Positions 31,948 through 33,990 of a stretch of 40,248 nucleotides of DNA are shown in pieces. Below the pieces are notes generated by a model that was not told the origin of the DNA, did not search any database, and was given only the letters and a program-made list of their open reading frames with translations. Location of the stretch: NCBI GenBank assembly GCA_947372965.1, contig CANBVR010000010.1, forward strand, positions 1-40,248. Reading direction: 5' to 3'. Each line of letters starts with the position of its first letter. Position 1 is the stretch's first letter. The position numbers and the translations under genes were made by a program. This DNA comes from Actinomycetota bacterium. GTDB lineage: Bacteria > Actinomycetota > Actinomycetes > Nanopelagicales > Nanopelagicaceae.

Positions 31948-32321
31948 GGTTTCACCGCTAAATCTAGATACTTAATTTCCTGCGCTGGCACCATTCCAAG
32001 TTTGTGTGCTTGAACGGCAAGTTGATCTGGAGAACCTTTGGCATTAACCAATCGAAGGGTTGCATCACGTTGATCTAAAGCAATATTGCGCTCATGCTTG
32101 AGATGTTGAAGAGTAAATGCATCCTGCGTCATTAAAAGATTGAGTGTTGCAATTACAAGTAGATCAACAGTTACGACAAGTCCAAGCAATAATTGAAACT
32201 TACGAGTATTTAGTTTCTCTTGCGTATTTATTTTTCCAAGAGCTGGAACCAGATTTAAAAGAGCCTTCTTAGTTCTAGCGGTAGGGGCGCCAATTACCGG
32301 GATTAAGGTTGTGATCGCCAT
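31944..32321 (-). CDS. ftsL: FtsL-like septum protein
   Basis: This 125-residue protein has a basic cytoplasmic tail of about 43 residues, one membrane helix (about 44-65, LLLGLVVTVDLLVIATLNLL) and a short outer region with coiled-coil character (LKHERNIALDQRDATLRLVNAK). The final part, QAHKLGMVPAQEIKYLDL, is the usual FtsL-like ending, where a helix breaks at a Gly-Met-Val-Pro turn. Sequence conservation in this family is low, so the call rests on topology and on its fixed place between rsmH and ftsI. It overlaps rsmH as TAATG and ftsI as ATGA. It should help FtsQ activate FtsW-FtsI. Confidence 0.84.
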   Translation of the reverse strand: MAITTLIPVIGAPTARTKKALLNLVPALGKINTQEKLNTRKFQLLLGLVVTVDLLVIATLNLLMTQDAFTLQHLKHERNIALDQRDATLRLVNAKGSPDQLAVQAHKLGMVPAQEIKYLDLAVKP

Positions 32322-33265
32322 TATGCTGCCACTCGTTCAATCGCCCGAAGTCGCATCGATTGGGCTCGAGCATTTTGATTAATCTCAGAAGCTGTAGCTG
32401 ATTCACTGCCCCGAATTACTAATTGATAACTTGCTGCAGAGTTTGGAAGATCCATAGGTAGCCCAAGAGGCGTATGGGAGGCAGTTGCTTTTGTAAATTC
32501 GCTCTTAACAATTTTATCCTCGAGTGACTGATAGGACATAACCACCAAGCGACCACCAATTGCGATTGCCTTAATTGCTTGTGGAATTGCACGAGACAAA
32601 ACTTCAAGTTCTTGATTAACTTCAATTCGAAGGGCCTGAAAGGTTCTTTTTGCGGGATTTCCACCTGTCCGACGAGTGGCTGCTGGAATGCTTCTTTTTA
32701 CTAGTTCAGCCAGATCCTTTGTACTTTTAAGCGTTCCAGATTCTCGGGCTTCAATTATGTTATCTACGATTCTTGTGGCGAATTTCTCTTCCCCAAAATT
32801 TCTTATCACGCGAACTAAATCATTTCGAGAGTAGGTATCTAAAATCTCTTGAGCACTAAGCCCCTGACTCTGATCCATTCGCATATCAAGTGGGGCCTCT
32901 TGCGAGTAAGCAAATCCTCGATCTGCTGTATCTAGCTGCATCGAGGAGACTCCGAGATCAAAGAGGATTCCCTCAACTTCTGAAATTCCCATACCTTCCA
33001 ATACTTCAGAAATTTCGTCATAGACGGCATGCACAATAACTACGCGATCAATTACTTCATTTAGATTCTTGGTTGCAATTTCGATCGCACCCTTGTCGCG
33101 GTCAAATGCAATGATTTTCAAATTTGGGAATGTCTCTAAAAGTGCCTTGCTGTGACCACCCATTCCAAGTGTGGCGTCGATAACGATTGGATTTGTTGCA
33201 CGTACAATTGCAGGGGTTAATAGCGCGATACAACGCTCGAGTGCAACTGGAATATGTTGTTGCAT
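32321..33265 (-). CDS. rsmH: 16S rRNA (cytosine-1402 N4)-methyltransferase
   Basis: RsmH (MraW) methylates N4 of C1402 in 16S rRNA using S-adenosylmethionine. The 314-residue enzyme has the SAM loop DATLGMGGHSKALLE at about 29-43, ILFDLGVSSMQLD, the EKFATRIVDNI segment and the C-terminal RLVVMSYQSLEDKIVK. The ATG at 33265 has a strong GGGGGAG ribosome site. Between it and mraZ are 178 bases containing a large hairpin, described separately. It is the second gene of the division cluster. Confidence 0.97.
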   Translation of the reverse strand: MQQHIPVALERCIALLTPAIVRATNPIVIDATLGMGGHSKALLETFPNLKIIAFDRDKGAIEIATKNLNEVIDRVVIVHAVYDEISEVLEGMGISEVEGILFDLGVSSMQLDTADRGFAYSQEAPLDMRMDQSQGLSAQEILDTYSRNDLVRVIRNFGEEKFATRIVDNIIEARESGTLKSTKDLAELVKRSIPAATRRTGGNPAKRTFQALRIEVNQELEVLSRAIPQAIKAIAIGGRLVVMSYQSLEDKIVKSEFTKATASHTPLGLPMDLPNSAASYQLVIRGSESATASEINQNARAQSMRLRAIERVAA

Positions 33266-33352
33266 CTTCTCCCCCTTCCACTTTCTTTATTCGAACTTTT
33301 CTGCCTGATTTGAATTTAATAACGAATTCTTTTTCTTATGTTTCTTCTGCTC

Positions 33353-33429
33353 TGGTCATCGCCGGCCGACGGATCTTGGGGGTAACGGCGCCGGGGAAGG
33401 GGCGTCGTTATTGAGGTCGGCGATGGCCA
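33353..33429 (-). other. Nested GC-rich hairpin between mraZ and rsmH
   Basis: On the minus strand an inner stem of ten pairs (33410-33401 with 33392-33383, one G-U) closes a loop of eight bases, CCTTCCCC. Around it an outer stem pairs TGGCCATCGCC (33429-33419) with 33363-33353, with one mismatch. The region is far richer in G+C than its surroundings. No T-run follows in the direction of transcription, so it is not an ordinary terminator. It would be part of the mraZ-rsmH transcript, between the mraZ stop and the rsmH ribosome site. Rfam, as I recall, has an actinobacterial RNA motif named for its place upstream of mraW; whether this is a member needs a covariance search. Confidence 0.6.
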
Positions 33430-33443
33430 CAACAGAGAAACTT

Positions 33444-33875
33444 TTAAAATAGCCCGGGCAACACCTCCGAAGAAACATCAGAGAAACTCTTTTCACGATC
33501 AGCCAAATAGCTTTCCCAAGAAGAGCTATCCCAAATTTCAAGGCGAGTATTTGCGCCAATAACAACGCAATCTTTTTCAAGTCCCGCATATACACGAAGT
33601 CCGTTTGGAATTGTTACGCGGCCTTGTTTATCTGGAACTTCATCATGTGCGCCAGCAAACATCACGCGCATGTAATCGCGAGCTGCTTTTTCAGTTACAG
33701 GTGCTTGGCGTAAACGCTCAGTAATGGCAGAAAACTCGCCACTTGGAAATACATAAAGGCACCGCTCTTGCCCTTTAGTAATTACTAAACCATTTGATAA
33801 TTCATCTCGGAATCTGGCGGGCAAGATGATTCGCCCTTTTTCATCAAGTTTTGGTTCGTGGGTACCGAGAAACAT
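33444..33875 (-). CDS. mraZ: Transcriptional regulator MraZ
   Basis: MraZ is a DNA-binding protein of two tandem AbrB-like folds that form a ring-shaped oligomer and controls the division and cell wall cluster. Of 143 residues, the first domain is [23 protein letters not shown] (5-27) and the second contains [13 protein letters not shown] (about 81-93); the repeated D-x-x-GR-x-x-(L/I)P core is the family mark. The ATG at 33875 has GGGGAGGT about eight bases upstream, a strong ribosome site. Upstream lies a five-copy repeat that should be its own operator, implying autoregulation. Confidence 0.96.
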
Positions 33876-33940
33876 TTAGACCCACCTCCCCTTTTTCTTA
33901 CCTAAATACGCTCAAATCCCCCCGGAATTAAGCGGTTACA

Positions 33941-33990
33941 CCACTTTACTCCATTTTTCCCCACTTTGCACCATTTCTGACCATTTATTT
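33941..33990 (-). promoter_or_regulatory. MraZ operator: five 10-bp direct repeats
   Basis: Five consecutive 10-base units begin exactly at 33941, 33951, 33961, 33971 and 33981. On the minus strand each contains AA(A/G)TGG, preceded by A: AAAGTGG, AAAATGG, AAAGTGG, AAATGG and AAATGG types. Known MraZ sites are runs of short TGG-containing boxes with a 10-base period, for example AAAGTG(G/T) with three spacer bases in mollicutes. The array lies 65-115 bases upstream of the mraZ start. The C-rich phase continues weakly to about 34010. I could not identify a convincing -10 hexamer between it and the gene. Confidence 0.82.

Follow-up and report, generated by a model that had tools for sequence, protein, structure and literature searches.

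The locus analyzed here raises the question of which role is played by a strong hairpin that fills the gap between mraZ (33444-33875, minus strand; an ORF of 143 aa starting with MFLGTHEP) and rsmH, also named mraW (32321-33265, minus strand; an ORF of 314 aa), in a window corresponding to the whole stretch of 40,248 nucleotides that was studied.

Structure and copy number of the mraZ-rsmH hairpin

Two nested stems and an CCUUCCCC loop had been described between mraZ and rsmH in an initial annotation of this DNA, and both the sequence and the predicted fold bear this out: the segment 33340-33445 has a minimum free energy of -57.7 kcal/mol (z = -6.3), and none of 200 shuffled sequences folded as well. 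The fold was computed on the plus strand, on which the hairpin is near-palindromic; the functional strand of the hairpin is the minus (transcribed) strand. The inner stem-loop, AAUAACGACGCC-CCUUCCCC-GGCGCCGUUACC (33381-33412, minus strand), delineated by folding and covariation, carries the 8-nt loop CCUUCCCC (33393-33400, minus strand), whose conserved part in the sequence and alignments, CUUCCCC (33393-33399, minus strand), is a candidate anti-Shine-Dalgarno (anti-SD) element. An A.C mismatch in the inner stem is replaced by a G-C pair in many relatives. The outer stem, also defined by folding and covariation, has its 5' arm at 33415-33441 and its 3' arm at 33340-33367 on the same strand, and a 13-nt 3' internal-loop strand, CCCAAGAUCCGUC (33368-33380, minus strand), was recognized from the alignment of 42 family sequences. 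The coordinates first given to the hairpin, 33353-33429, cover its GC-rich core, but an AT-rich base lengthens the conserved outer stem beyond this core, and the whole mraW-RNA-like element extends over about 33334-33443 (minus strand), where it is matched with 107.9 bits (E 1.4e-30) by R1, a covariance model built from 42 Nanopelagicaceae family sequences that include the element of the window itself.

In the alignment of 42 diverse family sequences, 97.1% of the pair cells held standard pairs, and compensatory changes were found in 17 of the 29 pairs (112 cells), whereas shuffles gave 9.2 pairs and 27.5 cells, and the covariation signal was lost when the pairing partner was shifted along the sequence. 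The inner stem was paired in 99.1% of cells, with compensatory changes in five of its eight pairs, and the outer helix in 96.4%, with such changes in 12 of its 21 pairs. With this proportion of paired cells and double changes far above those of the shuffles, covariation therefore provides firm evidence for an RNA structure. Base pairing, whose loss in relatives had been put forward as grounds for dismissing the hairpin, is thus kept.

The variants also bear on the possibility that the feature acts as DNA, such as an operator of MraZ or another inverted-repeat binding site. In its favor, the sites of MraZ are rich in G and either strand of the hairpin is nearly a palindrome, but many variants keep pairing through G-U, which preserves the symmetry of the RNA and not that of the DNA, and the hairpin is devoid of a TGG-box array, a separate one being already present upstream of mraZ. 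There, a scan of the sequence located five TGG[TGA] boxes with an exact 10-bp spacing (33941-33983, minus strand), which we take to be a candidate operator of MraZ; its repeats may outnumber those described for other bacteria. We consider a DNA-level function of the hairpin to be very improbable.

An attenuator had been among the first proposals for this strong GC-rich stem located in an intercistronic gap. However, the lack of a terminator T-run, already noticed at that time, was verified in the sequence: no T-run follows the hairpin, no terminator-like site was predicted by a scan of the mraZ-rsmH gap, and no sigma-70-type promoter of their own was predicted in the scan for the genes downstream. 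The hairpin does not combine a GC-rich stem with a T-run, so that an intrinsic terminator or attenuator was rejected as a candidate, and control of transcription by such a device is, in our opinion, barely credible. A match to a dispersed repeat, the other result that would have spoken against the hairpin, was ruled out because only one copy is present in the genome according to both a DNA search and a covariance-model search; a second R1 match in the genome corresponds to this same hairpin read, with a lower score, on the reverse strand.

Homology with the mraW RNA

The initial annotation had also suggested that the hairpin might belong to the RNA motif described upstream of mraW, to be checked against Rfam. 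The mraW RNA motif of actinobacteria was listed in 2010 (Weinberg et al. 2010, PMC2864571), and no mechanism is assigned to it in the main texts of the articles consulted. Over the whole window, no match to the corresponding model, RF01746, was obtained at the gathering cut-off (50 bits). With sensitive settings, in a search that covered a 401-base stretch, no credible Rfam match other than that to RF01746 was obtained (33333-33445, 25.3 bits, E 0.0042); the alignment spans the full length of the model (positions 1-107 of 107) and includes a segment common to both, CUUCCCCGGCGC. Among the genomes of 60 relatives, 29 contained RF01746 matches, only six of the 60 at or above the cut-off, and bridging family members reached up to 40.6 bits. 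When R1, for its part, was run on 40 loci of other actinomycetes, most of them gave a match at the place of the mraW RNA (lowest E-value, 4.3e-11); over the phylum, R1 matched three genomes, none of them outside the class, with strict filters that lose weak matches.

Because RF01746 and the family-only R1 match reciprocally, the hairpin is, as judged from sequence comparison, a homologous but diverged mraW RNA. The element lies upstream of mraW/rsmH, here and in relatives, and shares with the mraW RNA its place between mraZ and mraW/rsmH, a long nested hairpin, and the CUUCCCC loop. The copy of the window differs by its asymmetric 3' internal loop with an invariant UCCGUC, by its AT-rich outer stems, and by the complementarity of its loop to the SDs of both flanking genes. 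Membership in the motif, as first suspected, is thus supported by homology, although the score of the window copy, 25.3 bits, is only half the cut-off of 50 bits.

The conservation of the element was examined in relatives, against which the mraZ ORF of the window served as query; rsmH is present in 99 of the 101 family genomes, and genomes of Candidatus Nanopelagicaceae are among its named relatives. Upstream of rsmH, CTTCCCC was found in 127 of 129 loci, which comprise 106 loci of the family and 23 of other actinomycetes, four of the latter being second copies of family loci that came in through the Rfam search. The two other loci offered 18 usable bases at a contig end and a definable gap of 25 bases, respectively. 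CUUCCCC is present in every complete family locus examined and is invariant in the alignments. UCCGUC, within the 3' internal-loop strand, is likewise invariant in 42 Nanopelagicaceae sequences. A second pairing through this strand was considered and dropped, since no conserved complement of AGAUCCGUC, which contains UCCGUC, was found in the mraZ-rsmH transcript.

Loop complement at two ribosome-binding sites

The initial annotation did not mention the complementarity between the loop and the SDs of the two genes that flank it, a feature that suggests the most specific mechanism for this RNA. In the window, the rsmH SD reads GGAAGGGGGAGAAG-AUG, and its element GGGGGAG (33269-33275, minus strand), located 3 nt before the AUG, complements CUUCCCC with one G-U pair. 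The mraZ leader contains AAAAAGGGGAGGUGG, and its SD element GGGGAGG (33885-33891, minus strand) also complements CUUCCCC with one G-U pair. GGGGRRG is common to both SDs and, with G-U allowed, pairs with CUUCCCC over its whole length of seven bases.

GGGGRRG occurs in 88 of the 106 family rsmH leaders and in 80 of the 97 family mraZ leaders, counts that are not independent and overstate independence because the family sequences share ancestry. It is the commonest of the 21 five-G/two-purine arrangements in the rsmH leaders and also in the mraZ leaders. The motif was first spotted in the window and in the first relatives and was then counted; the controls and the permutation test came after. 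Over 77,209 nt of mraZ-rsmH transcripts, 89 sites were located at the rsmH SD, 88 in the mraZ leader, and two elsewhere, and the motif was found in none of the 30 leaders of each of the ftsZ, dnaE, and ileS genes of the same family. In nine genomes, GGGGRAG precedes 15 of 655 genes, ten of these 15 being rsmH or mraZ, and the loop-complement motif is found before about 1% of the other genes. When ranked by duplex energy among 716 background genes, nine of nine rsmH leaders (p = 1.7e-7) and six of seven mraZ leaders (p = 4.6e-6) came within the top 5%; this ranking was restricted to the family genomes, the gene starts given by the ORF caller being unreliable in high-GC genomes. Complements of the loop are thus selectively placed at these two sites.

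On the MraZ tree, at least 23 state changes were counted for the rsmH site and at least 26 for the mraZ site. The match is gained or lost in only about nine of the former and about 12 of the latter; the others exchange A and G opposite the loop U and leave the pairing intact. About one sixth of the family loci have no full match at one or the other SD. As the loop never varies, classical covariation between loop and SD therefore cannot be shown. The match might be a coincidence due to G-rich SDs or shared ancestry, the hairpin itself serving the stability of the mRNA or the insulation of the cistrons. A partial match to a pyrimidine loop is to be expected from any purine-rich SD, and the match is at or near background in other actinomycetes. 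However, GGGGRRG, in this exact order, ranks first in each of two separate genes, control genes of the same family have none, and the changes along the tree mostly preserve pairing, and we regard coincidence as quite unlikely.

In several mraZ leaders (L013, L091, L107, L092, and others), the SD reads GGGGAAGG and lies within a possible hairpin of 4-5 bp, the stems of which vary in genera g4, g10, and g39 (CUGG/CCAG, AGCG/CGCU, and ACCA/UGGU). This mraZ-leader hairpin could make a kissing pair with the loop of the mraW RNA. As a kissing loop showing GGGGAAGG, it was marginal, with 21 of 500 shuffles as good, and was not retained as a candidate.

Outside the family, no excess of the loop complement was observed in rsmH leaders (8.2% vs. 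8.1% in shuffles). In the non-family mraZ leaders, it was present in 35.5% vs. 17.9% in shuffles, with other arrangements of the same letters equally common, and this modest excess is explained by ordinary GGAGG-type SDs. Loop-SD pairing was thus not supported as an ancestral role common to all mraW RNAs, the rsmH leaders being at the level of shuffles and the mraZ excess being non-specific. The CUUCCCC loop is also kept outside the family, including in lineages whose SDs do not match. Because the same loop is found there with no excess of the rsmH complement, its conservation throughout the class requires at least one further cause, older or additional, for example recognition by a protein; the anti-SD use may have been gained in a lineage-specific manner.

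Such a protein could account for the element as a whole if the hairpin were a leader in which a conserved actinobacterial protein reads the CUUCCCC loop and the inner stem and controls the expression of rsmH or of the dcw cluster. The constancy of the loop across the class, even where the SDs mismatch, is what a conserved factor would be expected to produce, and the conserved UCCGUC of the internal-loop strand could be another contact in the family. No such protein is known, however, and binding of a protein leaves the loop complement at both family SDs unexplained. A protein-binding leader as the full explanation is, in our view, unlikely.

A candidate anti-SD mechanism

The explanation that we favor, and that we hold to be somewhat probable, is that the mraW RNA acts in cis as an anti-SD hairpin for the SD of mraZ or of rsmH. 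The long covarying stem would present the invariant CUUCCCC loop, which would form about 7 bp with GGGGRRG in the rsmH SD, about 120 nt downstream, or alternatively with GGGGRRG in the mraZ SD, about 490 nt upstream. The start of translation would be blocked at the paired SD, in mraZ or in rsmH but never in both at once, because one loop holds only one SD. The complementarity thus suggests that one loop may be able to switch off the translation of either flanking gene, and the output of the MraZ regulator would thereby be tied to the output of the downstream division genes. Pairing in cells, repression of translation, and competition between the two sites are what we infer from the sequences. 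A full two-way switch, in which the loop would hold the ribosome-binding site of either mraZ or rsmH and link, in opposite directions on one mRNA, the translation of the cell-division regulator and that of the first enzyme of the division cluster, is proposed more tentatively. No prior statement of an anti-SD mechanism for the mraW RNA was found in the articles consulted, and we know of no earlier stated function for any mraW RNA.

Five loci of genus g40 (L075, L077, L081, L083, and L089) have the hairpin and the match at the mraZ SD, with an rsmH gene devoid of GGGGRRG. These loci are natural test cases for a version of the mechanism with one target.

In addition, RNase III may act on the long duplex, whether the latter stands alone or is joined by the mraZ leader. 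Processing could even be the main function, RNase III or another nuclease cutting the long stem, parting the mraZ mRNA from that of rsmH and the downstream genes, and setting their ratio, with the loop sequence kept for the nuclease or for stability. About 29 conserved pairs do form a long duplex, and cleavage of the mraZ mRNA by RNase III in C. glutamicum was reportedly described by Maeda in 2016, but the published cut falls in the mraZ coding region, outside the hairpin. The mapped 5' ends of mraW, in or after the motif, keep a processing role open: that of C. glutamicum, at 2,266,932, lies inside the 3' part of the motif (2,267,021-2,266,916; PMC3890552), and in C. diphtheriae the motif is located upstream of the mraW 5' end (PMC5784534). 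These ends were, however, called transcription starts, and processing alone leaves the invariant loop and its match to two SDs unexplained. It is thus a rather unlikely explanation when taken alone. As regards the same 5' ends of C. glutamicum and C. diphtheriae, part of the rsmH mRNA might be devoid of the hairpin or be generated by a cut inside it.

An anti-SD action of the mraW RNA would work like that of the icaR 3'UTR of S. aureus, in which a UCCCCUG motif base-pairs with the SD of the mRNA that carries it, blocks initiation, and creates a substrate of RNase III (PMC3868564). Here as well, a C-rich motif located downstream of a regulator gene is complementary to an SD of its own mRNA. Nevertheless, the sequence and the organism are unrelated, there is one SD target in icaR and two here, and the motif resides there in a 3'UTR and here in an intercistronic hairpin that also has a downstream target. 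The mechanism has been demonstrated for icaR, whereas it would only be a likeness of operation, and not membership, in the case of the mraW RNA.

These results extend the mraW RNA to the Nanopelagicaceae, in which the Rfam cut-off misses nearly all copies. The anti-SD loop is a simple hypothesis, open to point mutations. If it is true, a toggle in which one loop serves two SDs would be an unusual design, and the conserved division cluster in a freshwater group of very high abundance would be under translational control in addition to control by MraZ.
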